A stretch of DNA of 64,000 nt. It comes from Sphingobacteriia bacterium (GTDB taxonomy: Bacteria; Bacteroidota; Bacteroidia; Bacteroidales; UBA7960). The notes beneath the pieces are model-generated. The model worked only from the letters and a program-made list of their open reading frames with translations. It was not told where the DNA came from and searched no databases. Every line of letters begins with the position of its first letter. Position 1 is the first letter of the stretch. Positions 15,809-50,829 of the stretch are shown here, one piece after another. The position numbers and the translations under genes were made by a program. Location: assembly GCA_011390785.1 (NCBI GenBank), contig JAABRR010000016.1:1-64000 (forward strand), given 5' to 3'.

Positions 15809-15822
15809 TAATTTTTTTGTTT

Positions 15823-15923: not shown

Positions 15924-15958
15924 ATCCTTGTCAAAGAATTGTGTTTTAAACACAGGTG

Positions 15959-24453: not shown

Positions 24454-24481
24454 CACGCCGAAAATTAAACAAGCATTAAAA

Positions 24482-24532: not shown

Positions 24533-24605
24533 TCAGAGAATGGAAAGGTCCATAGTGTGTAAAGCCGTTCTCTGAAAAACAGGGAGCGGCTTTATGATTT
24601 TTAAT
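24533..24605 (+). terminator. Attenuator hairpin in the gltB leader
   Basis: Stem of 14 pairs, AAAGCCGTTCTCTG (24561-24574) with CAGGGAGCGGCTTT (24580-24593), loop A5, followed by a broken T-tract ATGATTTTT. TCAGAGAA at 24533-24540 is exactly complementary to TTCTCTGA at 24568-24575, so it competes with the terminator's left arm. This is the standard antiterminator/terminator choice. Confidence 0.65.
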
Positions 24606-30660: not shown

Positions 30661-30680
30661 GATTACAGGATTATTTCTCC
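30651..30680. repeat. Hairpin across the convergent ends of gltD and thrC
   Basis: GGAGAAATA (30651-30659) and TATTTCTCC (30672-30680) are perfect complements with a 12-base loop. The arms include the stop codons of both genes. No T-tract follows on either strand, so it may act as a transcript end or stabiliser rather than a full intrinsic terminator. Confidence 0.6.
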
Positions 30681-31972: not shown

Positions 31973-31983
31973 CTCAGGAATTA

Positions 31984-32910: not shown

Positions 32911-32990
32911 TATTATATTTTAACTTTCTGTGCAACTGATTATTACTGATTTTTTGACTTACAGTTGCAGGGTTTTGAGGAATTAAAGTA

Positions 32991-35441
32991 CTATTGGGCA
33001 GCCACTCTAACCAGATCGGCCAAAACACCGGCTGCTGTAACCTCTGCACCTGCTCCAGGACCTTTAATTACCATTGGATTATAAAGGTAGCGGTTGGTGG
33101 TTAATGAAATGATATTATCACTACCGCTCAAATTATAAAATGGGTGCTGTTGATCCAACATCATAAGTTCAACACTGGCTTTTCCGTCTTGTAAAACACC
33201 CACATAGTGAAGCGCTTTGTTTTGAGAGGCAGCTTCCAGCTTAAGTTTATTGAAAAACTCTTCAGATTTTTCCAACTCTTTGTAAAAATCATCCACCGAT
33301 GAAGCAGTAAGGCAGTTTTCTGGCAGAATAGGTTGCAGTTTAATCTGGTCAATTTCGAGCTCAAGGCCGGTTTCCCGAGCCAAAATAAGCATTTTTCTGG
33401 CAAAATCCAGGCCACTCAAATCATCTCGTGGGTCTGGTTCGGTAAATCCTTTGTTTTGTGCTTCCTTTACCACATCTTTAAAAGTCCGGTCGCCTTTATA
33501 GTTGTTGAAGATATAGGAAATGGTGCCTGAAAGAATGGCTTCGATTTTAATGATCCTGTCACCACTGATCAGAAGATCGTGAATGGTCTTGATGATTGGC
33601 AAACCTGCGCCTACCGATGTTTCATACCAGTAGTCAACACCATAATGAAGAGCAGTTTCTTTGCTTTTACGATAGTGTTCGAACGTGCCCGATACGCCAA
33701 TTTTATTGCATGCTACTACAGAAATACTCTCTTCAAACAAACCAGTGTACAACGATGCTACATATTGACTTCCGGTATTGTCAATAAAAACAGAATTGGA
33801 AAGGTTTAGTCTTTTGGTTTCTTCAATAAGGGTATCAACATTGCCCGGAGTTCCATCTGTATCTAGCTGTTCTTTCCAGTTGGAAACAGGAATTCCTTCA
33901 ATATGAGTCAATAACTTTTTCGAATTACAAATACCCGCCAGATTGATTCTTACTTGTCGGTTGTTTTCGAGAAACTCTTTGTGCTCAGCAATTTGTTTCA
34001 ACAGCGTGCTGCCGATATTTCCGAGCCCACAACAAAAGACATTAAGTGTTTTAACTGGTGACAGGAACATGGCATCGTGTACTGAGTTCATTGCTTTCGC
34101 CAGATCTTGTCTGTCAATTACCGTGGAGATATTTAACTCTGAAGATCCCTGTGCTATGGCAACAACGTTTACCCCGCTTCTGCCCAAAGCGCTGAAGAAT
34201 TTGCCTGATAATCCACGGGTATGTCGCATATTCTCACCTACAACTGCAATAATGCTGTATTGATTTTCAACCTGGGGTGGATGAATTTTTTGTAATGCGA
34301 GTTCCTGTTCGAATTCTTCTTTAATGGCCTGCTCAGCCTGAAACATATCTGCAGGACTTACGGCCAGGGTAATGCTGTGTTCTGAACTTGCCTGGGTTAT
34401 CAGGATTACATTAACGTTGACGTCAGCCAGCGCTTTAAATAATCGCCCACTAAATCCTTTTTGCCCTACCATACCACTACCGATTACGGTAATGAGACTG
34501 ATTTCAGGAATAAAGCTGATTCCCTTTACCAATGATCCGTTGGCTGATGAGTTGGGCCCAATCACCGTTCCCTTAAAATCTTTGTTAAAGGTATTCCTGA
34601 TGATGATAGGAATATTCTTAGACTGTGCAGGGATCATGGTTGGAGGGTGTATTACCCTGGCACCGAAATAGGAAAGCTCAATGGCTTCATAGTAAGAAAG
34701 CTGTGCAATAGAAAAGGACTTCTTAACCAGTCGTGGATCTGCGGTCATAATTCCATTAACATCCGTCCATATCTGTATTTCAGATACGTTGAGTGCTGCT
34801 CCGGCAATGGCTGCCGTAAAATCTGAACCACCGCGGCCAAGGGTTGTGGTTTCTCCTTTTTCGTTAGATGCAATAAAACCTGTAAATACCAATATACTAT
34901 CGCCGTTTGCCAGGGCAAAATCGTTTAGTGCTTTGTTGGTAACAGTTTCATCAACCATGGCTTTCCCATATCGGCTGTCCGTCCTTATTAACTTGCGGGT
35001 ATCTCCTAAAACAGCTTTTCCACAATGTTGATCAATAAAATGCGCAATCATGGTGCACGAAAGCAACTCTCCATAAGATAAAACCTTATCCTGAACTCTG
35101 GCAGATACTTCACCCAGGGCTTTTACACCGGCAAGAAGGTCCTCCAGTTCATTGAAAAGAATCTTTAGGGCCAGAAGAGCATGGTTTTGCCTTTTAATTT
35201 CCAGTAAGGTTCTCACCGTTTTATAGTGCCGTTCCTCAATCAGTTTAATTTTAGGTAGTACTTCTTCACCTTTTGATGCCAAAGAAAGTAAATCCAGTAA
35301 ACTGGTTGTTACTCCGTTCATGGCAGAACAAACAACAACCAGATCATCGCCTGATGATCTGGTTTCTTTAACAATCCTAAGCAGGGCCAAAATAGCTTCT
35401 GCTGAACCTACTGATGTACCCCCAAATTTTAATACTTTCAT
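32991..35441 (-). CDS. thrA: Bifunctional aspartokinase/homoserine dehydrogenase
   Basis: Fusion of 816 residues that catalyses the first and third steps from aspartate to homoserine. The kinase part starts MKVLKFGGTSVGSAEAI and has FTGFIASNEKGETTTLGRGGSD. Two ACT domains (about 315-460; SLITVIGSGMVGQKGFSG, YSIIAVVGENMRHTRGLSG) are the usual threonine-binding part. The dehydrogenase part (about 465-816) has NVFCCGLGNIGSTLLKQI, VACNKIG, ETSVGAGLPIIKTIHDL and GFTEPDPRDDLSGLDFARK. It begins 17 bases after leuB, so transcription likely continues from the ilv-leu genes. Confidence 0.97.
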   Translation of the reverse strand: MKVLKFGGTSVGSAEAILALLRIVKETRSSGDDLVVVCSAMNGVTTSLLDLLSLASKGEEVLPKIKLIEERHYKTVRTLLEIKRQNHALLALKILFNELEDLLAGVKALGEVSARVQDKVLSYGELLSCTMIAHFIDQHCGKAVLGDTRKLIRTDSRYGKAMVDETVTNKALNDFALANGDSILVFTGFIASNEKGETTTLGRGGSDFTAAIAGAALNVSEIQIWTDVNGIMTADPRLVKKSFSIAQLSYYEAIELSYFGARVIHPPTMIPAQSKNIPIIIRNTFNKDFKGTVIGPNSSANGSLVKGISFIPEISLITVIGSGMVGQKGFSGRLFKALADVNVNVILITQASSEHSITLAVSPADMFQAEQAIKEEFEQELALQKIHPPQVENQYSIIAVVGENMRHTRGLSGKFFSALGRSGVNVVAIAQGSSELNISTVIDRQDLAKAMNSVHDAMFLSPVKTLNVFCCGLGNIGSTLLKQIAEHKEFLENNRQVRINLAGICNSKKLLTHIEGIPVSNWKEQLDTDGTPGNVDTLIEETKRLNLSNSVFIDNTGSQYVASLYTGLFEESISVVACNKIGVSGTFEHYRKSKETALHYGVDYWYETSVGAGLPIIKTIHDLLISGDRIIKIEAILSGTISYIFNNYKGDRTFKDVVKEAQNKGFTEPDPRDDLSGLDFARKMLILARETGLELEIDQIKLQPILPENCLTASSVDDFYKELEKSEEFFNKLKLEAASQNKALHYVGVLQDGKASVELMMLDQQHPFYNLSGSDNIISLTTNRYLYNPMVIKGPGAGAEVTAAGVLADLVRVAAQ

Positions 35442-35458
35442 TGGGTCCCTTTTATTTT

Positions 35459-36529
35459 TTAGAAGTTGTTTTTGATATAGGCTGCCAACCAGTCGCCAAC
35501 TGCTGATGTAGAGCTGGGATTGCTTTTGTCAATGTCTTCTGTTACTATTCCTTCAACGAGAGAAGCGTCAACAGCTTTTCTTATCATGGCGGCTTCATCA
35601 TTGAGCTTAAAAGCGTATTCGAACATAAGGGCGGCTGATAAAATGGTAGCCACCGGATTGGCGATATTTTTTCCGGCTGCCTGTGGATAAGACCCATGAA
35701 TGGGCTCAAAAACAGATGTGTGCAGGCCAATGGAGGCGCTGGGAAGCAGTCCTAAGGAACCGGTAATAACACTGGCTTCATCAGTAAGAATATCACCAAA
35801 CATATTTTCAGTAACAATAACATCAAATCGTTTGGGCCATTGAATAATCTGCATGGCAGCGTTATCCACGAACATGTATTCCAGTTCAACTTCAGGGTAT
35901 TGGGGAGCCATATCCTGAACTGTTTCTCTCCAAAGGCGCGAAGTGGCCAAAACATTGGCTTTATCTACCATGGTGAGTTTTTTGCGTCGGTTCATAGCAA
36001 ATTCGAAGGCCAGTTTGGCGATTCGTTCAATTTCATAGCGATGATAAACGGATGAATCGAAGGCTGTATTGCCATCTTCTGTGCGGCCTTGGGGTTGACC
36101 AAAATAGATCCCACCGGTAAGTTCTCTGATGGTAACAAAATCTACACCTTCTACCAGCTCCTGTTTCAGGGGTGATTTGTGAAGCAGCGAAGCAAATGTG
36201 CTTACCGGACGTATATTGGCATACAATCCCAATTGCTTACGCATGGCGAGTAAACCTTTTTCAGGGCGAACTTTCGCTTTGGGATCATTATCAAATCTTG
36301 GGTCTCCTATGGCGCCAAAAAGTACTGCATCAGACTCCATACAGATTTGATGAGTTTCTGGCGGGTAGGGATCGCCGGTAGCAAAAATGGCTGTTGCTCC
36401 TGTAAGGGCGTGGGTATAGACCACAGAATGCCCTTTCTTCTCACAAACGGCATCGGTTACTTTAATAGCTTGTTCTACGATCTCTGGTCCAATTCCGTCT
36501 CCGGGAAGTACTGCAATTTTAAAATTCAT
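35459..36529 (-). CDS. leuB: 3-Isopropylmalate dehydrogenase
   Basis: NAD-dependent beta-decarboxylating dehydrogenase of 356 residues in leucine synthesis. Shows [11 protein letters not shown], the substrate arginines in [14 protein letters not shown]-type sequence (here [15 protein letters not shown]), [24 protein letters not shown], and the NAD signature [18 protein letters not shown]. It also can act in the citramalate route to isoleucine. It follows the second synthase gene after a 233-base structured gap and precedes thrA by 17 bases. Confidence 0.97.
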
Positions 36530-36762
36530 TGTTTAATAATTTTGAATTAGAATGGTTTTTACTTAGTGTCAGCAAGAAAACTCCTGTTTTTTATATGTGC
36601 ATGATAAGAAAGCGTCAAGTGCAAGGGTTATTCCCTTTGGTCATGAGCTCAAAACCTTCAGTTTTTCGGTTGCGATGACTGAAAACAGGAGTCTCGTTGA
36701 AATAACGAGATGACTGTTTTGAAGGCGAGCATAACGCAGCAATTGGCGTTTTCTTGCAAGCA
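36530..36762. repeat. Nested inverted repeats between the synthase gene and leuB
   Basis: A 233-base gap inside an otherwise tight operon. The outer pair is GCAAGAAAA near 36574 and TTTTCTTGC near 36749. The inner pair is ACTCCTGTTTT near 36585 and AAAACAGGAGT near 36682. A small hairpin CTCGTT/AACGAG follows the inner right arm. The arrangement is like a non-autonomous insertion (MITE) or a dispersed intergenic repeat; no target duplication is clear and no second copy is in this window. Confidence 0.5.
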
Positions 36763-38316
36763 CTACTTAACGGCTTCAGCCTTTTCTTCCTGCACGTATC
36801 TGTGCTCATTATCGGCAATGGTGTTGAGCATTTTCATAGTAGCTTTAATAGCTGCTGCTGTTTGGTCGGCATCAAGGCCACGGGTTCTGAATTCCTGTCC
36901 CTTAAAATCCCATGCAATGGTGGTTTCTACAAGGGCGTCAGTTTTTCCACCTGGAGGTATGGTTACCAGGTAATCGGTAAGAACGGGGTGCTCTTTACCC
37001 AAACGGTCGTAAATACTCCACAGGGCTTTCATAAAAGCATCGTACTGGCCATCACCTACCGATGTTTCAATGTATCTTTCGTTATCTATACATATACTAA
37101 TAGAAGCTACTGGCTTCAAACCCCTGGCTACCGTTAGATTGTAATTGATCAGTTTAACATTCTGGCTGTTATTTTCGCTCTTCAAAACATCTGAAATAAT
37201 ATAGGGCAGATCATCGATGGTAACGGTTTCTTTCTGATCGCCCAGCTCGATAACCCGTTTGGTTACTTTAAGCAGATCTTCCTGCGAAAGCTCGATTCCC
37301 AATTCTTCGAGATTTTTAGTAATGTTGGCCTTTCCTGATGTTTTTCCTAGTGCATATTGGCGTGTACGGCCAAAACGTTCGGGCAGCAAAGGGTTGAAAT
37401 ACAAATTGGCTTTATTGTCACCATCGGCATGAACTCCACAAACCTGTGTAAAAACATACTCACCTGTAAGCGGTTTATTGGCAGGAATTCTTAGTCCGCT
37501 AAATAGTTCCACCATTTTTGATACTCTTGATAGTTTTGATTCTACCAGTGTGTTTTCTAATTTGAGATGATCGTTCAATACTCCCAAAACACTTGATAAT
37601 GGTACGTTTCCTGCACGTTCTCCCAGTCCGTTAACGGTAGTATGAATGCCTTTTATTCCCGCTTTTAAGGCAGAAAAAACATTCGCAGTTCCCAGATCGT
37701 AATCGTTATGGGCATGAAAATCGAAATGAAGATCAGGAAATCGTTCAACCATTTGACGGCAGAAATTTTCTGTCTGATCCGGGTTTAATATACCCAGTGT
37801 ATCTGGTAGCATGAACCGCTTAATGGACGATTTGCGCAGGTTTTCAACCATATAAAAAACGTAATCCGGTGAATAGATCATCCCATTGGACCAATCTTCC
37901 ATGTATAGGTTTACAGAAATACCTCTTTTAGCTGCTTCATCAAGGATAAATTGTATATCATTTAAGTGCTGATCAGGAGTTTTGCGAAGTTGCCCTTCCA
38001 GGTGCCTGAGTGATCCTTTTGATAAGAGATTGATAACTTTGCCACCGGCTTTTTCAACCCAGTCTAAAGAAGCTGTTCCATCTACAAAACTGAGTATTTC
38101 AATTTTGTGAATGCAATTATTCTTTGTTGCCCACTCAGTAATCCGTTTTACAGCCTTGAATTCTCCTTCTGAAACCCTGGCCGAAGCAATTTCTATGCGA
38201 TTTACACATATTTCATTTAAGAGAAGTTGTGCCATCGCCAGTTTTTCAGCATCGTTGAATGACACACTCGTTGTCTGTTCTCCATCCCGAAGGGTGGTAT
38301 CCATTATTTCTATCAT
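36763..38316 (-). CDS. Isopropylmalate-synthase family protein, probable citramalate synthase
   Basis: A 517-residue Claisen-condensing enzyme of the HMGL/LeuA family, distinct from LeuA at 40565. It starts at the catalytic block [12 protein letters not shown], has the metal site HFDFHAHNDYDLG, the hinge GLGERAGNVPLSSV, and a C-terminal LeuA-type allosteric domain (from about 390; KPVASISICID, VGDGQYDAFMKAL). A second LeuA-like gene between leuD and leuB is common in Bacteroidota. The likely activity is pyruvate plus acetyl-CoA to citramalate, the threonine-independent start of isoleucine synthesis. Sequence alone does not exclude isopropylmalate or homocitrate synthesis. Confidence 0.8.
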   Translation of the reverse strand: MIEIMDTTLRDGEQTTSVSFNDAEKLAMAQLLLNEICVNRIEIASARVSEGEFKAVKRITEWATKNNCIHKIEILSFVDGTASLDWVEKAGGKVINLLSKGSLRHLEGQLRKTPDQHLNDIQFILDEAAKRGISVNLYMEDWSNGMIYSPDYVFYMVENLRKSSIKRFMLPDTLGILNPDQTENFCRQMVERFPDLHFDFHAHNDYDLGTANVFSALKAGIKGIHTTVNGLGERAGNVPLSSVLGVLNDHLKLENTLVESKLSRVSKMVELFSGLRIPANKPLTGEYVFTQVCGVHADGDNKANLYFNPLLPERFGRTRQYALGKTSGKANITKNLEELGIELSQEDLLKVTKRVIELGDQKETVTIDDLPYIISDVLKSENNSQNVKLINYNLTVARGLKPVASISICIDNERYIETSVGDGQYDAFMKALWSIYDRLGKEHPVLTDYLVTIPPGGKTDALVETTIAWDFKGQEFRTRGLDADQTAAAIKATMKMLNTIADNEHRYVQEEKAEAVK

Positions 38317-38376
38317 GGGATTGATATTTTTCCTGTTATCAGGGGTAACTAAATTGAATTTTGATACGCACGATTC

Positions 38377-38970
38377 TTAGACCTTCTCTTTTTCAAACTG
38401 TTCTATTTCTTTGCTTTTGCTTAAAAGGTAGTCAATATCGTCGTAGCCATTGAGCATACAATTCTTTTTGTAAGCTCCAATTTCAAACTCTTCACTGGAA
38501 CCGGTTTCAAGATTGGTGATGGTTTGATTTTCGAGATCAACCTTTACTTTGGCTTCCGGATTTTTTTCAATGGTTTCAAAGAGCTGACTTACAAACTCTT
38601 CAGAAACCTGAACCGGAAGCAAACCGTTGTTGAGTGCATTGCTTTTAAAAATATCGGCAAAGAAACTCGAAACTACCACTTTAAATCCATAGTCAACAAG
38701 AGCCCATGCGGCGTGTTCTCGACTGCTTCCTGAACCGAAATTTTTGCCAGCCACAAGAATAGCTCCTTTATAGGTTGGATCGTTCAATACAAATTCGGGT
38801 CTGGGTTTTCCAGCCGGGTCGTAACGCCAATCGCAAAATAGTTTGGCTCCGAAACCTTCGCGTGTAGTAGCTTTAAGAAAACGTGCCGGGGTTATCTGGT
38901 CGGTATCTACATTGTCAATAGCTAGCGGAACGCAGCTTGAAACAAGTTTTTCAAATTTTTCTACGGGCAT
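38377..38970 (-). CDS. leuD: 3-Isopropylmalate dehydratase, small subunit
   Basis: Swivel subunit of 197 residues that completes the LeuCD isomerase. Family blocks are [19 protein letters not shown], the Gly-Ser-rich active-site loop [17 protein letters not shown], and [22 protein letters not shown]. It lies 124 bases after leuC. The 5' gap shows nothing notable. Confidence 0.97.
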
Positions 38971-39094
38971 TTTTTTAGGTTTTATTTTTAAGAAAATTTG
39001 AAAATACAGGTGTTATTTTGTTTGTCAATTATTCCTGTATTTTCGATTTACTTGGTATGTATGAAAATTACTAATCATTAAGAATCCTGTAATG

Positions 39095-40516
39095 TCAGGA
39101 AACAAGTTCGGGTTCTTCCAAAAATATCCTGGGATCAGTAATTTCGCCTGTAATTGCAATAGCAGCGGCAGTTATAGGGCTGGCGAGCATGGTTCTGGCA
39201 CCAGGTCCCTGCCGTCCTTCGAAGTTTCTGTTGGACGTTGATACAGCATATTTACCGGTTGGAATTTTGTCTTCATTCATGGCCAGACACGCCGAGCATC
39301 CGGGCTGGCGCATTTCAAAACCGGCATCTTCCAGAATTTTAATGAGACCTTCTTTTTTTGCCTGTGCTTCAACTTGTTTACTACCGGGAACAATCCATGC
39401 TGTAATATTATCAGCTTTCTTTTTTCCTTTGATAAACGCAGAAAATGCTCTCAGGTCTTCAATCCTTCCGTTGGTGCAACTTCCAACAAAAATGTAATCT
39501 ACCTTTTTACCCAGTAATGGCTCTCCGGGTTGATAACCCATATATTCCATCGATTTCAAAAACGATTTATGATCACTGGGATTTAATTCGTCCAATGCAG
39601 GTATCTTTCCGGTAATTCCTACACCCATACCCGGGTTAGTTCCATAGGTAATCATCGGCTCAATATCTTCGGCTTTAAAGTGTAGTTCTCTGTCGAAAAC
39701 AGCATCAGGATCACTGGGTAAACTTCTCCAGTAGGTAAGTTTCTTTTCCCATTCTTCACCTTTGGGAGCCATTTCACGACCTTTAATATAGTTGAAAGTG
39801 GTTTCATCAGGGGCAATTAACCCGCCACGGGCACCCATTTCAATACTCATATTGCAGATCGTCATTCTGGCTTCCATACTTAAGCTTCTGATGGCCGAAC
39901 CCGCAAATTCTACAAAGTAGCCTGTAGCACCTCCGGCAGAAATCTGGGAAATGACGTAAAGTACAATGTCTTTTGAGTTTACTCCTTTGCCCAGTGTTCC
40001 ATCTATATTGATACGCATTTTTTTGGGCCTTGAAAGAATAAGGCACTGACTAGCCAATACCATTTCTACTTCGCTTGTTCCAATACCAAAAGCCACTGTT
40101 CCGAAGGCACCATGGGTTGAAGTATGGCTATCACCACAAACTATGGTCATGCCCGGTTGGGTAATACCCAATTCAGGCCCAATAACGTGCACAATACCAT
40201 TATAGGGGTGATTTAACCCATATAGTTCAATACCATTTTCTTCGCAATTACGGCTAAGGGTATTCACCTGTAACCTGCTCAACTCATCATGAATGGTGAG
40301 ATGCTGGTTTTGAGTAGGTATGTTATGATCGGCAGTAGCAACCGTTTTTTCTGGTCGTGCTACCTTAATACCACGTTTTTTTATTCCTGCAAAAGCCTGC
40401 GGACTTGTAACTTCATGGATAAAATGCCTGTCGATATAAAATACACCCGTAGAATCATCTATAGATTCAACGATGTGTTTATCCCAGATTTTGTCGATGA
40501 TTGTTTTTCCAGCCAA
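39095..40516 (-). CDS. leuC: 3-Isopropylmalate dehydratase, large subunit
   Basis: Aconitase-family subunit of 473 residues with a 4Fe-4S cluster. Blocks seen: [13 protein letters not shown] start, [25 protein letters not shown], the first cluster Cys in [14 protein letters not shown], and the other two in [10 protein letters not shown]. The start codon is TTG at 40516: a stop lies four codons upstream in frame, and the TTG gives the family N-terminus. It is 48 bases after leuA. Confidence 0.96.
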
Positions 40517-40564
40517 TGTATGTAAGATTTAATTGTTTATGTAAAAAATAGATTTAGATGTAGA

Positions 40565-42061
40565 CTAAGCAATTTTGCCCAATGCATCAAGAAACGCTTC
40601 AACTGAAGCTGTGATAATATCAGTATGTGCACTAAATCCATAATATATACTTCCTTTGTGCTCTACCTGTACATGAACTTTACCGAGGTCGTCGCTGCCT
40701 CGTGTAATGGCTTGAATAAGAAATTCTTCGAGTCTTACTCTACGCTTCACCAGGTTTTTAACAGCAGAGAAAGAAGCATCTATGGGACCATTGCCCGATG
40801 CTGTTTCGGTAAAGGTATCACCTTTAAAACTGATCTGAACTGTTGCTGTTGGGATGGTTGATTTACCGCATACAACTTGCAGTGATATCAATTCGATGGG
40901 GCGTTTTCCTTTTACTTTTTCGCTACCGGCCAAGGCTTCCAGATCTTCATCGGAGACATCCTTTTTCATATCGGCCAATGTGAGAAACTTTTCATACAAT
41001 TCGTCAAGTTCTCTTGCCTCAAATGCATAACCGAGAATTTGTAATCTGTGTTTCAGAGCCGCTCTGCCGCTACGGGCAGTCAGAACAATAGAAGATTCTT
41101 TTACACCTACCTCCGCAGGGTCTATTATTTCGTAGTTAAGTCGGTTTTTAAGAACTCCATCCTGGTGTATCCCTGATGAGTGAGCAAATGCATTACGGCC
41201 AACAATGGCTTTATTGGGCTGCACGGGCATACGCATCAATGTAGAAACCAGTTTACTGGATTTCATGATCTGTTGTGAATCAATACCCGTTACGAAGTCA
41301 AGATCCTGATGGCATTTGATAGCCATAACCACCTCCTCAAGTGATGTATTACCGGCTCTTTCGCCAATTCCATTTACCGTAACTTCTACCTGACGGGCAC
41401 CATTGATAACTCCGGATAGGGTATTGGCAGTGGCCATACCTAGATCGTTGTGGCAATGCGTTGAAATGATTGCTTTGTCAATGTTCGGAACATTATTAAC
41501 CAGGTAGGCAATTTTTTCGCCATACTGTCCTGGAAGGCAATAACCTGTAGTATCTGGGATATTGACTACGGTAGCACCAGCTTTGATAACAGCTTCTATA
41601 ACCCTGGCCAGGAATTCATTATCGGCTCTGCCTGCATCTTCAGCATAAAACTCAACATCATCAACAAACGTGCGGGCATATTTGACCGATTCAATGGCCC
41701 GGTTCATAATTTTTTCGTGAGTTGAGAGTAGTTTGTGCTTGATATGATATTCAGACACACCAATTCCAGTATGTATGCGTTTACGTTTGGCAAATTTCAG
41801 GGCATCGGCTGCTACCTCAATATCTTTGTGTACAGCCCTTGTAAGGGCGCAGATAACGGGGTTTTCAACAGCTTTGGAAATTTCTACCACTGAGTTGAAA
41901 TCGCCGGGGCTGGAAATTGGAAACCCTGCTTCGATAATATCAACACCTAATTTTTCCAACTGCCTTGCTACTTCAATCTTTTCAATTGTATTGAGCTGGC
42001 ATCCTGGCACCTGCTCACCGTCGCGAAGAGTAGTGTCAAAAATATAAATTCTTTCTCCCAT
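40565..42061 (-). CDS. leuA: 2-Isopropylmalate synthase
   Basis: Condenses 2-ketoisovalerate with acetyl-CoA, the first step of leucine synthesis. The 498-residue protein has the catalytic [30 protein letters not shown], the metal-binding [14 protein letters not shown], the hinge [18 protein letters not shown], and [15 protein letters not shown]. The C-terminal allosteric domain (about 385-498) is the usual leucine-feedback site. It begins 36 bases after ilvC. Confidence 0.97.
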
Positions 42062-42097
42062 GATTAATAAATTTTGGTTTTTGAGAATTGGGTTAAT

Positions 42098-43147
42098 TTA
42101 CTTCTGATTTTCAGGCCTTAGCTGTCTAACTGCTGCACCAGCCTGCCACATTTCTGATTCGCGAAGTTCTTTCAATTCTTCTTCCAGTTTTACGCGATAA
42201 TCTGCCTGGCTGTTTGAATCTATAGAGCGTTGTGATTCGTTTCCTTTTGCAACTTCCTTATAAAGATCAGAAAATACCGGAAGAGTTGCATCACGAAACT
42301 TCTTCCACCAGTCGAGAGCACCTCTTTGGGCAGTTGTAGAACAATTGGCATACATCCAGTCCATACCATTTTCTGCTACCAGCGGCATCAGACTTTGAGT
42401 AAGTTCTTCTACAGTTTCATTAAATGCTTCTGATGGGGAATGGCCGTTAGAGCGGAGCACTTCATACTGTGCGGCAAAAATACCCTGAATAGCTCCCATC
42501 AATGTTCCACGTTCGCCGGTAAGGTCGCTGTAAACTTCTTTTTTAAAGGTTGTTTCAAATAAGTAACCACTACCAACACCTATTCCCAGAGCAACGACTC
42601 TTTCCCATGCTTTTCCTGTTGCATCCTGGAATATAGCATAACTGGAGTTAAGTCCGCGTCCTTCCAGGAACATCCGACGAAGGCTTGTGCCGGAACCTTT
42701 AGGCGCTATTAATATAACGTCTACATCAGCAGGAGGAATAATTCCGGTCTGTTCTTTATAGGTGATTCCAAAACCATGAGAGAAATAAAGAACTTTTCCG
42801 GGTTTAAGGCTATTTTTTACTGTTGGCCAAAGTGCAATCTGACCCGCATCGGAGAGCAAGAACTGAATAACAGTTCCTTTTTCAAGAGCTTCTTCAATAG
42901 GGAAGAGTGTTTCTCCTGGTACCCATCCGTCGGTAACAGCCTTGTCCCATGATTTAGAATTCTGACGTTGACCAACAATTACATTAAAACCGTTGTCTTT
43001 AAGGTTGAGCGCCTGACCGGGGCCTTGCACACCGTAGCCAATAACGGCAATGGTTTCATCCTTCATTACTTCTTGTGCCTTTGACAAGGGAAACTCTTCT
43101 CTTGTAACCACGTTTTCTTCGACTCCGCCGAAATTTATTTTCGCCAT
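42098..43147 (-). CDS. ilvC: Ketol-acid reductoisomerase
   Basis: Isomerises and reduces acetolactate or acetohydroxybutyrate with NAD(P)H. The protein is 349 residues, close to the class I length plus a short extension. The nucleotide motif is VIGYGVQGPGQALNLKDNG, followed by GQRQNSKSWDKA, where charged and Ser residues suggest NADPH preference. Catalytic blocks are FSHGFGITY, APKGSGTSLRRMF, DLTGERGTLMGAI and AYEVLRS-type helices. It lies between ilvN and leuA in the operon. Confidence 0.97.
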   Translation of the reverse strand: MAKINFGGVEENVVTREEFPLSKAQEVMKDETIAVIGYGVQGPGQALNLKDNGFNVIVGQRQNSKSWDKAVTDGWVPGETLFPIEEALEKGTVIQFLLSDAGQIALWPTVKNSLKPGKVLYFSHGFGITYKEQTGIIPPADVDVILIAPKGSGTSLRRMFLEGRGLNSSYAIFQDATGKAWERVVALGIGVGSGYLFETTFKKEVYSDLTGERGTLMGAIQGIFAAQYEVLRSNGHSPSEAFNETVEELTQSLMPLVAENGMDWMYANCSTTAQRGALDWWKKFRDATLPVFSDLYKEVAKGNESQRSIDSNSQADYRVKLEEELKELRESEMWQAGAAVRQLRPENQK

Positions 43148-43196
43148 AATGTTAACTTATTTGTTTGTTGTTATTTGTGAAAATTATATTAAAATA

Positions 43197-43742
43197 TTAA
43201 TTCGCCAGTTTTAAACGATCTTCTTCCAGTTTCTTGAGATAACTATTTAATGGCTCTTTTCTTGATCTGTTTACAGCAATCCTTCCTGAACGTGTAAACT
43301 GAGTTAAACCATAAGGATCAAGCATTTCGTATAGTTCCTGCGTTTCGGTTTTATGACCGGTTTTTTCAATTATTGTATATTCTTCAGTCATCTCCAGTAT
43401 GTGGGCACCATATTTTCGAACAAGCTTCTCAATTTCGTTTCCGCTGAGAAGAGCTTTGGTAGGTACCTTGTAGAGAGCAATTTCCTGATAAATAATCTCA
43501 TCATTGGTGAACCAATAAGCCTTTAGAACATCAATACGCTTTTCTATTTGTTTAACCAGTTTCTCAATTTCATCGTATGTAGAATAGATTACGATGGTAA
43601 ACTTATGTATGCCGTTGATAGCTGATTCAGAAGTTGTTAAACTTTCTATATTGATATGTCTCCGGGTAAAAACTGTTGTAATCTGGTTAAGCAAACCAAC
43701 CCTGTTTTCTGAATATACTGTTATGGTGAATTCTTCTTTCAT
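43197..43742 (-). CDS. ilvN: Acetolactate synthase, small subunit
   Basis: Regulatory ACT-domain subunit of 181 residues. The N-terminal ACT domain reads EFTITVYSENRVGLLNQITTVFTRRHINIESLT, the usual valine-binding fold, with a longer C-terminal domain (from about 85). The ATG at 43742 gives the family start (MKEEFTITVYS). A further upstream in-frame ATG would add 32 residues lying inside the end of ilvB and is rejected. It follows ilvB after 40 bases. Confidence 0.95.
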   Translation of the reverse strand: MKEEFTITVYSENRVGLLNQITTVFTRRHINIESLTTSESAINGIHKFTIVIYSTYDEIEKLVKQIEKRIDVLKAYWFTNDEIIYQEIALYKVPTKALLSGNEIEKLVRKYGAHILEMTEEYTIIEKTGHKTETQELYEMLDPYGLTQFTRSGRIAVNRSRKEPLNSYLKKLEEDRLKLAN

Positions 43743-43782
43743 GATAGTTAAGTTTATATATTTGGGACTGATTTGTTTATTA

Positions 43783-45516
43783 TTACTCCAGACGTATTTC
43801 ATCAACTGCAGCACCGGATGGTACCATCGGAAATACATTCCCTTCTTTTTCTACTACTACTTCAAGCAGGTAAGGGCCATCGGTTTCAAGCATGGTTTTA
43901 ATAGCATCATCAAGATTATCTCTCTCGGTTACTTTGGCGCATGGTATGTAGTAACCCTTGGCTATAGTCTGAAAATCAGGGTTTACCATTTCAGTAGATG
44001 CATAACGATAATCAAAGAATAGTTCCTGCCATTGCCTTACCATTCCAAGGAAGTTGTTGTTAAGCAGAATAATTTTCACACCTACCTTTTCCTGAAAAAT
44101 TGTACCTAATTCCTGAATGGTCATTTGGTAGCCACCATCGCCAACAATAAGACAAACATGGCGATCGGGCATTCCCATTTTTGCACCAATGGCAGCAGGT
44201 AAACCAAACCCCATTGTTCCAAGGCCTCCTGAAGTTACAACGCTTCTTGTTTTCTTAAATTTAAAATATCGGGTGGCAACCATTTGGTGCTGGCCTACAT
44301 CGGTAACCATGATTGCATCGTCATCAGTTGCTTCAGAAACACGCCTAACCACTTCGCCCATAGTGAGTAGCGGAGTCTCCGGGAATAGTTCTTTTTCAAT
44401 TACTCTTTCTGTTTCTATACGCATACAGGCATTAAACTCTTCAATCCACTCCGGATGTTCATTGTTACTAACTTTCTCTGTAAGCAGGGGTAGAGTTTCT
44501 TTAACATTTCCTAAAATCGGCACGTCAGCATGTATTATTTTGTTGATTTCAGCCGGGTCTATCTCCATGTGGATTACTTTGGCTTTGGTAGCATATCGTT
44601 GTACATTGCCCGTTACCCTATCATCGAAACGCATTCCAATACCCAGGATAAGATCGGCTTCATTGGTTTTTATATTTGGGCCGTAATTTCCATGCATACC
44701 CAGCATACCAACATTTAAAGGGTGGTCAGTTGGCATTGCAGATAGGCCCAGGATTGTCCACGCTGCAGGGATGCCTGCTTTTTCAAGAAAAGCAAGAAGC
44801 TCCTGTTCTGCCCCGGCAAGTACTACGCCTTGTCCGATAAGTGCCAAAGGTTTTTTAGATAAGTTAATCAAATGGCTGGCTTCATCAATTTTTGATAGAT
44901 CAGGTATGGGCAAGGGCGTATAGCTTCTTATAGAAGTCATTTTTTGGTAGGTATAATCCAGTTTGCCAAACTGCGCATCCTTAGTAATATCCAATAAAAC
45001 CGGTCCTGGTCGACCGCTGCGGGCAATAAAAAATGCTCTTGACATAGCCCATGGAATTTCTTCCGGCCTGGTGATCTGATAATTCCATTTTGTGATAGGC
45101 TGGGTAATGCCAATTACATCTGTTTCCTGAAAAGCATCTGTTCCCAGCAAGTGAGAGCCAACCTGGCCTGAAATTACAACAATAGGAGTAGAGTCGATCA
45201 TAGCATCAGCAATACCTGTTACGGCATTGGTTGCTGCAGGGCCAGATGTTACCAAAGCAACTCCAACTTTTCCGGTTACTCTGGCAAAGCCTTGTGCCGC
45301 ATGAACGGCTCCTTGCTCGTGCCTGACAAGTACGTGTTTTAGTCGGTCGGTATAGGAATATAGTGCATCATAAACTGGCATTATTGCTCCGCCGGGATAG
45401 CCGAACATTAGTTTTACTCCTTCGTTTAGCAAGGATTCCATAACGGCTTCAGCACCAGTAATGGTTTTTGACTGCACCTGTTTTTTTTCCATAGATTCAT
45501 AGGTTTGAGCTTCCAT
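43783..45516 (-). CDS. ilvB: Acetolactate synthase, large subunit
   Basis: Thiamine-diphosphate enzyme of 577 residues making acetolactate or acetohydroxybutyrate. The active-site Glu is in VLVRHEQGAVHAAQGFAR. FAD/central-domain blocks include GMLGMHGNYGPN and GIGMRFDDRVTGN. The thiamine motif is IVGDGGYQMTIQELGTI with the distal NN in ILLNNNFLGMVRQWQ. A second in-frame ATG eight codons in is possible; ATG 45516 is the first. It is 88 bases after ilvD. Confidence 0.97.
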   Translation of the reverse strand: MEAQTYESMEKKQVQSKTITGAEAVMESLLNEGVKLMFGYPGGAIMPVYDALYSYTDRLKHVLVRHEQGAVHAAQGFARVTGKVGVALVTSGPAATNAVTGIADAMIDSTPIVVISGQVGSHLLGTDAFQETDVIGITQPITKWNYQITRPEEIPWAMSRAFFIARSGRPGPVLLDITKDAQFGKLDYTYQKMTSIRSYTPLPIPDLSKIDEASHLINLSKKPLALIGQGVVLAGAEQELLAFLEKAGIPAAWTILGLSAMPTDHPLNVGMLGMHGNYGPNIKTNEADLILGIGMRFDDRVTGNVQRYATKAKVIHMEIDPAEINKIIHADVPILGNVKETLPLLTEKVSNNEHPEWIEEFNACMRIETERVIEKELFPETPLLTMGEVVRRVSEATDDDAIMVTDVGQHQMVATRYFKFKKTRSVVTSGGLGTMGFGLPAAIGAKMGMPDRHVCLIVGDGGYQMTIQELGTIFQEKVGVKIILLNNNFLGMVRQWQELFFDYRYASTEMVNPDFQTIAKGYYIPCAKVTERDNLDDAIKTMLETDGPYLLEVVVEKEGNVFPMVPSGAAVDEIRLE

Positions 45517-45604
45517 ACTTTTCGGTTTTAGTTAAATATAAATGGGTATGGTAAAATTTAAATTGGAAATTGTAAAGAACGTATTTTGTTTTTATAATTC
45601 TGGT

Positions 45605-47437
45605 TTAATCAGGTAATACTCTTACGGCACCTTCATCTGCTGAGCGAACCAGTGATGCATAAACTTTCAGGGCATTAGAAACTTTTCTTTCTCTTTTGCC
45701 AGGTTTGTAAGCATCTTTGCCTTTTTTTATTTCTTCTTCATGTCTTTTCAGCATTTCTTCATCAGAAACTTTTACGTTAATGCTCCTGGTTGGAATATCT
45801 ATTACTATTGTATCACCGTTTTTAATAAGTGCAATAGCACCACCTGCAGCAGCTTCAGGAGAAACATGGCCTATAGACAAACCTGATGTTCCACCTGAAA
45901 ACCGACCATCAGTTATAAGTGCACATTTTGTTCCCAGACCTCTTGATTTAAGATAGGATGTTGGGTAAAGCATCTCCTGCATTCCTGGTCCACCTTTCGG
46001 TCCTTCATATTTGATAACCACAATGTCATTTTCTTTTATATCGTTTAGCAGGATCGCTTTAACGGCATCATCCTGCGATTCGAAAACCTTGGCTGTGCCT
46101 TCAAAATGCCAGATAGATGAATCAACTCCGGCAGTTTTTACAATACTTCCTTTGGTAGCAATATTTCCATAAAGCACACCTAACCCACCATCATGAGAGT
46201 AAGCATTATTTAAAGAACGTATACACCCTTTTTTTCTGTCATCGTCAAGGGCTTTAAAAATTGATCCCTGTGATCCCATTGTAAGGTTTTTTACACCACC
46301 TGGTGCACTTTTATAAATAATGGATGCTTTATCAATGGCTGTATCTGCAGTAATATCATAATCTTTAAGAGCTTCAGCAAGGGTAGGATAGTCAACTCGT
46401 TTTACTGATGCATCCAACAGACCCGCTTTATTTAACTCGGCCAGAATTCCCAGCACACCACCTGCACGATTTACATTTTCTACATGGTAGTGACTACTTG
46501 GCGCTACCTTGCATAAAACAGGTGTTTTACGAGAAAGTTCATCAATATCTTTCATTGTAAAATTTACCCCCGCTTCATGAGCGATAGCAAGAAGGTGTAA
46601 TACGGTATTGGTTGATCCACCCATGGCAATATCAAGGGTCATGGCATTAAGAAAAGCTTCTCTGCTGGCAATGTTACGGGGTAAAACTGAAACATCCCCG
46701 TCGCGATAGTAGCTGTAGGCCATTTTCACGATCAGGGATGCTGCATCCTGAAATAATCCTAACCTGTTTTGATGGGTTGCTACTACTGTACCATTACCGG
46801 GAAGTGCCAACCCCAATGCTTCATTCAGACAATTCATTGAATTGGCTGTAAACATGCCGGAGCATGAACCGCAGGTAGGACAAGCATTTTCTTCAACTTC
46901 GCTTAATTCCTTATCACTGACAGATTCGTCTGCTGCCAATACCATAGCATCCACCAGGTCGATCATTTTATCTCCCACACGGCCTGCTTCCATCGGTCCA
47001 CCAGATACAAATACAGTTGGTATATTTAGTCTCATGGCTGCCATGAGCATTCCTGGGGTAATTTTATCACAATTGCTGATACAAACCAGTGCATCAGCCT
47101 GATGAGCATTTACCATATATTCAATACTGTCAGCAATCAGATCGCGGGAAGGTAATGAATATAGCATGCCATCGTGCCCCATTGCTATGCCATCATCAAT
47201 TGCAATGGTGTTAAATTCTGCTGCAAAACAACCTTGCTCTTCAATCCATGTTTTAACTTTTTGGCCTATCGGATGAAGATGCGTGTGGCCCGGAACAAAC
47301 TGAGTGAAGGAATTTGCAATGGCTACCAGTGGTTTCCCCATTTGCTCACTTTTCATTCCTGCTGCACGCCACAGGCTTCTGGCGCCTGCATTAAGCCTTC
47401 CATGGGTGGTAGTATTACTCCTTAATGGTATTTGCAT
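45605..47437 (-). CDS. ilvD: Dihydroxy-acid dehydratase
   Basis: Fe-S enzyme of 610 residues in the shared valine/isoleucine pathway. Cysteines that hold the cluster are in [15 protein letters not shown] and [18 protein letters not shown]; other blocks are [15 protein letters not shown] and the C-terminal [10 protein letters not shown]-type [25 protein letters not shown]. It is the first gene of the ilv-leu-thr run. The upstream leader holds an Ile/Leu/Val-rich peptide and an intrinsic terminator, so its transcription is probably attenuated by branched-chain amino acid supply. Confidence 0.97.
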
Positions 47438-47458
47438 GTTAGTTATAGTTCTAAAACG

Positions 47459-47494
47459 AAAAAAACCCTCTCACTTTCCGAAGTGAGAGGGCTT
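47459..47494 (-). terminator. Intrinsic terminator (attenuator) before ilvD
   Basis: On the minus strand CCCTCTCACTT (47491-47481), loop CGGA, AAGTGAGAGGG (47476-47466), then T7. The 11-bp perfect stem ends about 20 bases before the ilvD ATG. It would stop transcription before the whole operon unless the leader's antiterminator forms. Confidence 0.92.
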
Positions 47495-47514
47495 TCAAAA
47501 TTTTATCAAATTAT

Positions 47515-47592
47515 TTACACACCATTCTCACTTCTTTTGTGTCCCACTAAAAGAATAATGTAAATATAAATGGTGGTAAATAGATAGTTCAT
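47515..47592 (-). CDS. ilv-leu leader peptide, 25 residues
   Basis: Starts MNYLFTTIYIYIILLV and ends KRSENGV before TAA. Residues 8-16 (IYIYIILLV) hold four Ile, two Leu and one Val, the pattern of a branched-chain leader peptide. The codons for K19 to N23 contain GAAGTGAGA (47534-47526), which pairs over 9 bases with TCTCACTTC of the terminator's left arm. Stalling at the Ile/Leu/Val codons leaves that segment free and favours read-through. Confidence 0.9.
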   Translation of the reverse strand: MNYLFTTIYIYIILLVGHKRSENGV

Positions 47593-47617
47593 AGATACGA
47601 TATGATTTTGTTGTATG

Positions 47618-47646
47618 CAAAATTAGAATAAAATCTAATAAGACAA
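47618..47646 (-). promoter_or_regulatory. ilv-leu operon promoter
   Basis: On the minus strand a -33 TTTG element ends at 47644, then 18 bases, then TAATTTTG (47625-47618). Predicted start near 47611, about 19 bases before the leader peptide ATG. Confidence 0.75.
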
Positions 47647-47840
47647 ACTTTTTTTTGAAAAAGTTTTTAAATGTTTGTTTACGTACAGCTAGTCAAGGTA
47701 TTATAACCCATTTATTTTAGAAAATACCAATTAAAAAGGCATGTTGTTAGGGAAAATTGTTGGATAAAATGGATTATTTTCGTCATTTTTTATAGAAAAA
47801 TCTAATAAATATCATGTTTTACACAAAAACGATCTTATTT

Positions 47841-50780
47841 CTATTCCACAGATTGCCATAGCACATCAATAGGATGCATGGCTTTTCGGTGAGTTCCATC
47901 CCATATCTGATGACGGCAACTGGTTCCTGGGGCTGAAATAATCGCATCTTTTTCTGCTGCACGAACAGCCGGAAAAAGTTTAAGTTCGCCAATTGCCATG
48001 CTAACAACGAAGTGTTCTTTTTCATAGCCGAATGCACCTGCCATTCCACAACATCCACATTCGATTTCTTCAACTTCCCAGCCTTCGGGTATCGTGAGCA
48101 TTCTAACTGTATGATTTACGGATGAAAGAGCTTTTTGATGACAATGACCGTGAAGATATATCTTTTGAGATTTACCTTTGAAAACCTTCTTATCAATGTT
48201 GTTGGCATCAAGTTCACGAACAATAAATTCATCAATAATATAAGTATGAATAGATAGTGTTTGAGCTTTTTCTGAAAGCTCACTATCACAAAGGTCTTTG
48301 TATTCGTCTCTTAGGGTTAAAATTGCTGAGGGTTCTATACCTATAACAGGAATTTTTTGTTCGGCAAAGGGAAACAGTATTGTAATATTATAGTTGGCAA
48401 AACTTCTGGCTTTTTTTAAAAGTCCCTTTGAGAGAGATGCCCTGCCACTTTCCATTACTTTGGGCATTTCAATGTAATAACCCAGCTTATTGAGTAACAG
48501 ACAGGCGTTTATGCCAGTAGGAGTATCATTGTAATCGGTAAATTCATCGCAAAATACAACAACTTTTTTTTCAGGGTTTGCGTTTTTGTTTAATTGTTTA
48601 AGATTTTTATTGGCCCAGCTTTTCCAGGTTAGTTTATGTAATGGCGGAAGGCTTCTTTCTTGAGAAAAACCAGATACTTTTTTTACCAGGGGTGAAAGTA
48701 CCGATGATTGCGAAAATAAGTTGTATAATGAAGGTATCACTGATGCCAGTTTGTTGATTTGAGCATAATTGGCAATTAGTTTTGATCTGAAAGGCACCCC
48801 ATTGGTATCATAATAATTCTGAAGAAACTCTGCTTTGTATTTACCCATGTCAACATTAGAAGGGCATTCTGACTTACAACCTTTGCACGAAAGGCATAAA
48901 TCCAAAACTTCTTTTATTTCATGATGATCAAAAGGATTTAGCTTGTTTGAATTGGTTATAAAATCTCTGAGAATATTTGCTCTTGCCCTTGTAGTATCTT
49001 TTTCGTTTGTTGTTGCCTGGTATGATGGACACATTACCCCTTTCTGGGTATGAAGTTTTCTGCAATCACCTGATCCATTACATTTTTCTACAGCTCTCAT
49101 AAAACCATCTGCTTCAGGGTACCGGAAATAGGTTTTTAATTCTGGTTGAAGCTTACCTGGTTCAAAACGAAAAGACGAGTTCATTGAAGGGGTATCAACA
49201 ATTTTACCCGGATTGAGAATATTATTGGGATCCCAAACGGCTTTCAAATCCTGAAACACCTTGTATAACCTGTTTCCCAGCATAAGGGGAATAAATTCTC
49301 CCCGTAACCGACCATCACCATGTTCACCGCTGAGCGAACCTTTGTATTTTTTTACCAGGTTTGCCGTTGCCAGGGCAATTTGATGAAATCGTTTTACATC
49401 TGCTTTGTCTTTCAAATTAAGAATGGGGCGCAGATGAATTTCACCGGTGCCTATGTGTGCATAATACACACAAGGAATATTCATTTCAGCAAGAATAACT
49501 TTCAATTCAGCAACGAAATCGGGCAGTTTCTCAACGTTTATTGCAGTATCTTCAATAACTGCAACAGGTTTTGCATCGCCCGGAACATTGCTCAAAAGAC
49601 CTAATCCTGCTTTTCTTAAAGCCCACACCTTTCCGATTTCTTTTCCTTTCAAAACCGGATAGTGATATCCCATATTTTGTTCCTGCATATGCTTTATCAT
49701 TGCAGCTGCCTTGCTATCAATCTCGTTTATTTGATCTTCAGCAAATTCTACTACCAGAATGGCATCCGGATCATTCTTAATAAAAAACCGGTTTTGTGCC
49801 TGGGTAATGTTTGTTTTGGTACAATCCAGCACAACCCTGTCTATAAGTTCAACAGCAACCGGGTTATATTTTAAGGCAACCAGGTTTGCCTGCAGAGCTT
49901 CTTCTATAGAATTTACATGTACACAAACCAAAGCCGCATGAGCTGGGGGTAGTGAAACAAGATTCAGCTTTATTTCCGTAAATACAGCCAGACTTCCTTC
50001 GCTTCCGGCCAGAAGCTTGCAGAACGAAAAATTGGTTTCATCATTTGAAAATATGCTGTTTTTTAACAAAAGGTCTAGTGCATAACCGGTATTTCTCCTA
50101 TGGATAGAAGGTTCAGGGTATTGCTTATGGATTTCTTTCTGTAACGAATGATCAGAAAGAACATCAAATATATTTTGATAAATTCTTGATTCCAGGTTAT
50201 TTCCTACACATTTTTTACGAAATTCATCGTGGGTTAGATCTTTAAATATTGTTTCGGATCCATCTGCCAATAGAGCTTTTACTTCCAGTGTATGATCTCT
50301 GGTGCTGCCATAAACCAAAGAATGGGCTCCACATGAATTATTGGCAACCATACCACCAATCATACATCTGTTGGATGTTGATGTTTCTGGCCCGAAAAAT
50401 AAACCGTGAGGCTTGAGAAAGACATTGAGCTCATCGAGAATGACCCCTGGTTGCACCCTCACCCATTTTTCTTCAGGATTGAATTCCAGAATTTTTGTCA
50501 TGTATTTGGAGAAATCTACCACCATTCCATGCCCAACTACTTGACCTGCAAGCGATGTGCCTGCTGTTCGCGGAATTATGGGAATTTTATTTTCATTAGC
50601 AAAAAGAATTATCTTTTTGAGGTCATCTTCTGTTTTTGGGCGGCATACCGCTAAAGGTATTTCTCTGTAAACTGAAGCATCAGTTGCATGAAGCACCCGC
50701 ATGGTAGTATCGGTATATAAATCACCCGAAATTTCCTTTTTTAGATATTGTAAAAGATCATCAGTATTTGTTGTGTCCAT
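47841..50780 (-). CDS. FAD-linked oxidase with Fe-S and CCG domains (YdiJ-like)
   Basis: A 979-residue 2-hydroxyacid dehydrogenase. Order: FAD-binding PCMH domain (about 40-270; IIPRTAGTSLAGQVVG, GGMVANNSCGAHSLVYGSTRD), FAD-oxidase C domain (YYAHIGTGEIHLRP, GEHGDGRLRGEFIPL), 4Fe-4S clusters (CNGSGDC, CLSCKGCKSECPSNVDMGK), and a C-terminal cysteine-rich domain with ECGCCGMAGAFGYEKEH. Size and order match the YdiJ type, a D-2-hydroxyglutarate dehydrogenase, more than plain GlcD or Dld. ATG 50780 is preferred to TTG six codons upstream. A DUF1338 gene lies 49 bases upstream, which supports the hydroxyglutarate role. Confidence 0.85.
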   Translation of the reverse strand: MDTTNTDDLLQYLKKEISGDLYTDTTMRVLHATDASVYREIPLAVCRPKTEDDLKKIILFANENKIPIIPRTAGTSLAGQVVGHGMVVDFSKYMTKILEFNPEEKWVRVQPGVILDELNVFLKPHGLFFGPETSTSNRCMIGGMVANNSCGAHSLVYGSTRDHTLEVKALLADGSETIFKDLTHDEFRKKCVGNNLESRIYQNIFDVLSDHSLQKEIHKQYPEPSIHRRNTGYALDLLLKNSIFSNDETNFSFCKLLAGSEGSLAVFTEIKLNLVSLPPAHAALVCVHVNSIEEALQANLVALKYNPVAVELIDRVVLDCTKTNITQAQNRFFIKNDPDAILVVEFAEDQINEIDSKAAAMIKHMQEQNMGYHYPVLKGKEIGKVWALRKAGLGLLSNVPGDAKPVAVIEDTAINVEKLPDFVAELKVILAEMNIPCVYYAHIGTGEIHLRPILNLKDKADVKRFHQIALATANLVKKYKGSLSGEHGDGRLRGEFIPLMLGNRLYKVFQDLKAVWDPNNILNPGKIVDTPSMNSSFRFEPGKLQPELKTYFRYPEADGFMRAVEKCNGSGDCRKLHTQKGVMCPSYQATTNEKDTTRARANILRDFITNSNKLNPFDHHEIKEVLDLCLSCKGCKSECPSNVDMGKYKAEFLQNYYDTNGVPFRSKLIANYAQINKLASVIPSLYNLFSQSSVLSPLVKKVSGFSQERSLPPLHKLTWKSWANKNLKQLNKNANPEKKVVVFCDEFTDYNDTPTGINACLLLNKLGYYIEMPKVMESGRASLSKGLLKKARSFANYNITILFPFAEQKIPVIGIEPSAILTLRDEYKDLCDSELSEKAQTLSIHTYIIDEFIVRELDANNIDKKVFKGKSQKIYLHGHCHQKALSSVNHTVRMLTIPEGWEVEEIECGCCGMAGAFGYEKEHFVVSMAIGELKLFPAVRAAEKDAIISAPGTSCRHQIWDGTHRKAMHPIDVLWQSVE

Positions 50781-50829
50781 TTTTTTTGTTTTAGGCAAAT
50801 TTGTTTTGTGAACTATTTAGCTAAATTCT

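Follow-up and report, generated by a model that had tools for sequence, protein, structure and literature searches.

The window, by which we mean the whole stretch of 64,000 nucleotides analysed here, contains on its minus strand twelve co-directional genes (47437..30671) for the synthesis of isoleucine, leucine, valine and threonine, in the order ilvDBNC-leuACD-cimA-leuB-thrABC, separated by intergenic gaps of at most 233 nt. The genes of this operon are as follows.

45605..47437, minus strand: ilvD, dihydroxy-acid dehydratase (NCBIfam), with its ATG start codon at 47437
43783..45516, minus strand: ilvB, acetolactate synthase large subunit (same family search as ilvD)
43197..43838, minus strand: ilvN, acetolactate synthase small subunit (same search)
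42098..43147, minus strand: ilvC, ketol-acid reductoisomerase (same search)
40565..42061, minus strand: leuA, 2-isopropylmalate synthase (same search)
39095..40516, minus strand: leuC, 3-isopropylmalate dehydratase large subunit (same search)
38377..38970, minus strand: leuD, 3-isopropylmalate dehydratase small subunit (same search)
36763..38316, minus strand: cimA, citramalate synthase-like (top NCBIfam match, under its curated cut-off)
35459..36529, minus strand: leuB, 3-isopropylmalate dehydrogenase (same search as ilvD)
32991..35441, minus strand: thrA, bifunctional aspartate kinase/homoserine dehydrogenase (same search)
31984..32910, minus strand: thrB, homoserine kinase
30671..31972, minus strand: thrC, threonine synthase, followed by the convergent gene gltD

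Like gene orders were found in two other genomes, one of which (G013, locus L163) extends through thrABC with cimA and ilvN unmatched, while the other (G031, L160) reaches thrA at the contig end with ilvN unmatched. TAnnTTTG is the promoter motif of the Bacteroidota, and a scan of the operon gaps with a 60-nt margin returned a single such box, at leuC-leuD, without a -33 partner. Immediately upstream of ilvD, between 47647 and 47459 on the minus strand, lies an element with the layout of a leader-peptide attenuator, composed of the following parts.

47647..47644, minus strand: -33 promoter element (TTTG), its TTG 18 nt upstream of the TA box
47625..47618, minus strand: -7 promoter element TAATTTTG (TAnnTTTG), a match to the Bacteroidota-type motif
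47592..47515, minus strand: leader ORF MNYLFTTIYIYIILLVGHKRSENGV with its stop (ATG, 25 codons, TAA), with similar ORFs in relatives
47582..47568, minus strand: arm 1 of the protector (1:2) helix, paired with 47526..47512 in the minimum-energy fold and supported over the whole set
47571..47545, minus strand: control codons 8-16 (ATT TAT ATT TAC ATT ATT CTT TTA GTG), from the ORF reading and the Ile/Leu/Val codon bias of the leader set
47534..47526, minus strand: antiterminator arm 2, GAAGTGAGA, with covariation over the set
47488..47480, minus strand: arm 3, TCTCACTTC, partner of either arm 2 or the 3' arm of the terminator
47496..47459, minus strand: predicted intrinsic terminator hairpin and T7 tract, from sequence, folding and covariation

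These features agree with a preliminary description of this DNA, which had named a promoter, a 25-codon leader ORF, a 9-bp antiterminator and an 11-bp terminator with T7 before ilvD; all were located on the minus strand, the antiterminator arm does lie inside the leader ORF and 3' of the control codons (nt 59-67, against codons 8-16), and the up to twelve genes placed downstream correspond to the operon above. Ile, Leu and Val codons are clustered in the leader, where IYIYIILLV occupies codons 8-16 of 25. Arms 2 and 3 are exactly complementary, and arm 3 belongs at the same time to the 5' side of the hairpin (47496..47461), which has an 11-bp core, or 16 pairs when its A-U ends are counted, and is followed by the T7 tract at 47465..47459. 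The 186 nt fold with an energy of -49.9 kcal/mol (z -5.4), and none of 200 shuffles folded as well; for the antiterminator match at this locus, comparison with shuffles gave p = 0.007. A further helix of the minimum-energy fold joins the beginning of the ORF to the bases that directly follow arm 2; taken at this locus alone, the contiguous 1:2 stem is no better than in shuffles (p 0.33). The locus carries one unit only.

To evaluate the conservation of this unit, we applied a fixed detector to up to 400 nt upstream of ilvD, calling a unit where an ORF 10-40 codons long, holding six or more Ile/Leu/Val in 10, was followed by a terminator no more than 60 nt from its stop. An IlvD search of 59 genomes (the genome of origin and its relatives) matched 21 of them, 19 with the gene start, and a unit precedes ilvD in 18 of these 19 loci, the locus studied here included; the one scored as a miss (L009) has by eye both a leader and a terminator. 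Among the best 80 loci of a genome-contig scan, where the closest IlvD is that of Saccharicrinis sp. UBA6048 (73%), the detector found a unit before ilvD in 26 of the 43 contigs that could be assigned to Bacteroidota from their names, and in none of the 37 from other phyla. Such units precede ilvD in sequences named Odoribacter laneus, Bacteroides graminisolvens and Phocaeicola faecalis. In controls, units were called in 4/403 regions upstream of other genes on the same Bacteroidota contigs, in none of the 148 such regions where the gap was 150 nt or more, and in 10/1180 dinucleotide shuffles. The 17 Bacteroidota ilvD loci without a unit include three with short upstream sequence (L024, L061, L067) and one with Ns (L030); Prevotella-type and several rumen ilvD loci seem truly to be without it. 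The Prevotella-type loci in question are L067, with its short upstream sequence, L068, L069, L071 and L083, which we take to be Marseilla, and their pattern suggests that the element was lost in this lineage. The control blocks of the closest relatives contain much Ile, Phe and Leu and few Val codons, and pairwise differences among five loci fall 40/18/30 on codon positions 1/2/3, with no third-position excess.

A hairpin at this position might simply terminate the preceding minus-strand gene (47841..50798), with the small ORF there by chance. That gene does have the same orientation, and about 345 nt separate its end from the hairpin, but the promoter box and the ORF sit between the two, the frequency of the unit at the relatives' ilvD loci contrasts with that in other upstream regions, and a second pairing, involving the ORF, covaries. 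Hence we regard this explanation as extremely unlikely.

The covariation was assessed on an alignment (A2) of 39 of the 45 units, which favours clear cases, with L013, L017, L041, L059 and both L056 units left out. In A2, 91.3% of the terminator cells are paired, a level reached by 0/500 shuffles, and 10 of 13 pairs show changes on both sides. For the antiterminator, 85.9% of the cells are paired (0/500 shuffles reach this) and 7 of 11 pairs show both-side changes (reached by 7/500 shuffles), a count that tends to be lowered by the own clade being two columns out of register; sliding the partner lowers antiterminator pairing to 46-57%. Terminator and antiterminator hence covary on a shared arm 3, which supports a switch rather than a single fixed fold. 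At single loci, the antiterminator match reaches p<0.05 against shuffles in 34 of 50 raw units and fails to do so in 16, the 50 still containing one unit for which the wrong hairpin had been picked and no fewer than four that are spurious. The spurious second units of L005, L006, L011 and L080 were excluded from the 1:2 helix, promoter and codon counts, and L016, where the wrong hairpin had been chosen, was excluded from the 1:2 helix set and kept in the other two. The 1:2 helix has p<0.05 in 14 of 45 units, with a combined p of 2.7e-9 over the set; here and elsewhere, shuffle p values take units as independent and ignore their relatedness. In relatives the antiterminator arm often overlaps the leader stop, beginning 1 to 6 nt ahead of where the ORF ends in 21 of the 50 rows; this GAGAAAGG-type overlap with the stop codon is absent from the locus studied here.

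Promoter motifs accompany the units as well. Of 42 units, 37 have a TAnnTTTG box 16-47 nt upstream of the leader ATG, compared with 4.8% in shuffled flanks, and 35 have a TTG 17-23 nt further upstream of the box; units less than 80 nt from a sequence edge were skipped in this count. Two of the five box-less units are downstream tandem members (L022 and L056), the first members of which were too near the edge to be counted. At the ilvD locus, the sole TAnnTTTG box within the 283 nt before the gene (47438..47720) precedes the leader, and the scan of that interval found none between terminator and ilvD, so that on motif evidence the predicted transcription start lies upstream of the leader. A sigma-70 promoter was also considered and discarded, since a consensus scan of the leader gave no match and the Bacteroidota TAnnTTTG motif fits instead.

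We compared codon usage in 46 leaders (units) from 44 loci, totalling 994 codons, with that of the ilvD genes. GTC and GTG make up 150 of 177 Val codons in the leaders and 623 of 1403 in ilvD, CTA makes up 26 of 157 Leu codons against 49 of 1726, and ATT makes up 121 of 170 Ile codons against 684 of 1502. This biased choice suggests translation of the leader ORF and selection on its codons; codon choice is known to tune the sensitivity of leader-peptide attenuators.

The identity of the leader codons also tracks the downstream product in other genomes. Leaders before thrA are rich in Thr and Ile (L133, L136, L138, L150; for instance MTTNNTIIITIITTG), those before ilvA in Ile (L130, L139, L144, L145; for instance NIIISIISIIAIEQ) and those before trpE in Trp and Phe (L127, L158; for instance FTWAWFWF), while a leader before leuA reads HILLCGIIILL and one before hisG (L156) carries His. 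Within the genome of origin, a leader with WWW, MTSNLHTHNFWWWHGKFIFRVELNGH, precedes the best trpE-like gene (G000:C129, L172), a match under the curated cut-off of its family, and one with HH..HHH, MKIKTTMNTILLTQHHPSFHHHYMGYIHLCR, precedes hisG (G000:C140, L179), each followed by what is by eye a terminator-like hairpin. Sensing of threonine through leader Thr codons was considered for the ilvD element and found unsupported: relatives whose operons likewise extend to the thr genes carry a single Thr, either ahead of the block or within it (L006/L160, L009/L163), and Thr codons are inconsistently kept, with three in L005, one before the block in L006 and none in L003.

A second attenuator-like leader was observed in the window at 24464..24601 on the plus strand, before a 1507-aa gene next to gltD that we assign to the glutamate synthase large subunit from its size and position only. 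It has a promoter box, TATATTTG, a leader, MTGSSYLLYSIGRLPT, and the arms GAGAATGG, CCGTTCTC and GGGAGCGG. Of 16 other loci found with this gene, 11 were inspected, and in seven of them (L184, L185, L187, L188, L189, L191 and L192) the gene is preceded by a comparable leader with comparable arms. These gltD-neighbour leaders are mostly rich in Ser, Tyr, Phe, Leu and Ile, not in Gln or Glu, four of them having PP near the end. The window further contains a SAM riboswitch (RF00162, 76.3 bits) at 15822..15924 on the minus strand, upstream of a 435-aa minus-strand gene (14161..15468).

An RNA that binds a ligand or tRNA directly, as riboswitches and T-boxes do, or that is bound by a protein, would make the ORF at ilvD incidental. 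The one indication in this direction is a weak Rfam match to a PyrR site (32.5 bits, below the gathering score of 54). Against it, neither the ilv element nor any of seven related loci gave an Rfam 15 match at gathering score, and a ligand leaves both the codon bias and the product-dependent codon identity unexplained; T-box and riboswitch covariance models likewise gave no match on the element, where the best leader-peptide family is Phe_leader (RF01859, 22.6 bits against a gathering score of 55). Direct recognition by the RNA is, in our assessment, highly improbable.

Comparison, covariation, codon choice, the match between codons and product, and the trp and his leaders of the same genome all support the attenuation reading of the preliminary description. 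Comparing ilvD upstream regions among relatives, as that description had proposed, revealed conservation of the Ile/Leu/Val ORF and of the competing pairing, and the start downstream of the terminator that it had named as a refutation finds no counterpart among the promoter motifs in the 283 nt before ilvD. On these grounds, read from sequence and comparison, the element is very probably a transcription attenuator of the ribosome-mediated type, sensing charged tRNA for Ile, and probably for Leu and Val, and controlling the ilv-leu-thr operon. Leader translation, ribosome stalling, termination and read-through under starvation are what we infer from this arrangement. Transcription would start about 20 nt before the leader ATG, as judged from the motif. 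With Ile, Leu and Val plentiful, the ribosome would reach the stop and sit on arm 2 (GAAGTGAGA), so that arms 3 and 4 would pair, the terminator would form and transcription would end before ilvD. When these amino acids are short, the ribosome would stall at codons 8-16 and cover arm 1, so that arm 2 could pair with arm 3; no terminator would form and the twelve genes would be transcribed. Were the leader left untranslated, the 1:2 helix would hide arm 2 and the terminator would again form.

The geometry of the leader is compatible with these steps. A stalled ribosome covers about 15 nt ahead, and arm 2, at nt 59-67 of the ORF, should therefore be free when the ribosome stalls with codons 8-13 in its A site; by the same arithmetic, a ribosome at the leader stop (nt 76-78) would cover it. 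This bears on a variant of the attenuator reading in which mainly Ile, or slow translation in general, is sensed, not all three amino acids. Positions 8-13 hold four Ile codons, and stalling there would leave arm 2 wholly free; the footprint of a ribosome at Val 16 would touch that arm, and in other genomes several leaders consist almost entirely of Ile. Yet over the set the leaders hold 177 Val, 170 Ile and 157 Leu among 994 codons, and their Leu and Val codon choice is strongly biased, so that we consider the narrower specificity possible though rather unlikely. Regulation might alternatively proceed by translational coupling or reinitiation at ilvD in place of transcription termination, as a proposal exists that short leader genes close to structural genes increase initiation, the peak in Bacteroidetes being at a distance of 11-14 bp (PMC4833913). 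Here, the leader stop and the ilvD start are 77 nt apart with a strong terminator in between, which renders coupling very unlikely.

To explore the distribution of attenuation across the phylum, the IlvD protein was tried as a probe (E<=1e-150) and abandoned after it matched 4 of 247 genomes, that of origin included, probably because IlvD is divergent in other classes (33-38% identity by tblastn). The RNA model R1, used instead, matches 86 of 296 phylum genomes at E<=0.001, the genome of origin included, a count to be taken as an upper bound. In the genome of origin the ilv element is the only strong match (E 2.7e-14), the next (0.0016) spanning only the 3' part of the model; weak matches on C79 and C19 were set aside, as they look like the ends of preceding genes. 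We read the R1 matches at 45 distinct places (49 loci, four places being represented twice), 38 of which precede a recognisable amino-acid gene (ilvD, ilvE, ilvN-like, ilvA, leuA, thrA, trpE or hisG), one of them (L132) with an unknown ORF between; the other seven (L125, L137, L151, L153, L155, L157, L159) have no recognisable amino-acid gene. Gene identities at these places derive from tblastn with the genes of the window, from NCBIfam for trpE, ilvA, hisG and two ilvE genes, and otherwise from likeness; the ilvN-like gene of L118 has no NCBIfam match at 1e-20.

Reading around the R1 matches uncovered series of units in 9 of 36 other genomes, eight with two units and one (G315) with three (L147, L114/L148, L118/L143, L119, L121, L122/L142, L128, L129/L149, L146), in addition to two further tandem loci (L022, L056). 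They stand before ilvE, ilvN-like or ilvD operons; a locus flagged as tandem, L141, was rejected because its second unit falls inside leuA. Among the 19 units of the nine arrays, the antiterminator has p<0.05 in nine and not in ten (combined p 1.4e-7). Six of the nine arrays have a promoter box ahead of their first unit, in L129 just 4 nt before the ATG, and none was found in the other three; one of the ten downstream units has a box (L147 unit 2, 7 nt before the ATG). That tandem units act in series is our reading of this arrangement. On balance, we favour the view that these elements form a phylum-wide, sequence-conserved family of branched-chain amino acid attenuators uncatalogued in Rfam 15, in which several lineages stack two or three units, mostly behind one promoter box, as successive starvation tests for RNA polymerase. 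If so, stacked units would sharpen the response multiplicatively, transcription and translation would be coupled closely enough in Bacteroidota for such timing, and the arrays would lend themselves to studying, in a natural setting, how dynamic range is set by repeated attenuators.

These results provide a concrete prediction for the control of branched-chain amino acid synthesis in the Bacteroidota, a dominant phylum of gut and environment. Translation initiation in this phylum differs from that of E. coli, and if the element works as read it would be evidence for tight transcription-translation coupling. Our literature search found no description of ilv attenuation in Bacteroidota, although Vitreschak 2004 and Lopatovskaya 2010 may hold earlier predictions.

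The E. coli ilvGMEDA, leu and thr operons are governed by leader-peptide attenuators in which an ORF rich in product codons is combined with 1:2, 2:3 and 3:4 helices and an intrinsic terminator. The Bacteroidota element has the same layout of leader codons and terminator, with the corresponding helices predicted, and the composition of E. coli ThrL resembles that of thrA leaders in other genomes examined here (MTTNNTIIITIITTG). It differs from the E. coli attenuators in its Bacteroidota promoter motif and in an operon joining ilv, leu and thr genes, as do 21 of the 50 rows, the locus studied here not among them, in a conserved GAGAAAGG-type arm over the leader stop. Among RNAs known from the phylum, the Bacteroid-trp motif (RF01692), listed as a Bacteroidetes cis-regulatory RNA (PMC2864571), has a name that suggests trp genes and does not reach its gathering score on the window and on the trp leaders found here. 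Tandem attenuators with likewise more than one short ORF per leader are reported from Salmonella mgtCBR (PMC3641672); that operon encodes a Mg2+ transporter, whereas the repeated branched-chain units belong to other Bacteroidota and not to the ilvD locus itself. Long 5' UTRs of Bacteroides are noted to hold short ORFs reminiscent of leader peptides (PMC7366714). The nearest precedent comes from Flavobacterium psychrophilum, for which a 2021 study reports strong clues that leader peptides act by attenuation in front of amino-acid operons, in a passage that names none of these operons (PMC9723704). The preliminary description was thus right in part that such attenuation is less documented in Bacteroidota, but these clues mean that it is not new to the phylum, and the F. 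psychrophilum leaders share with the element at ilvD the phylum, the proposed mechanism and the position before amino-acid operons.
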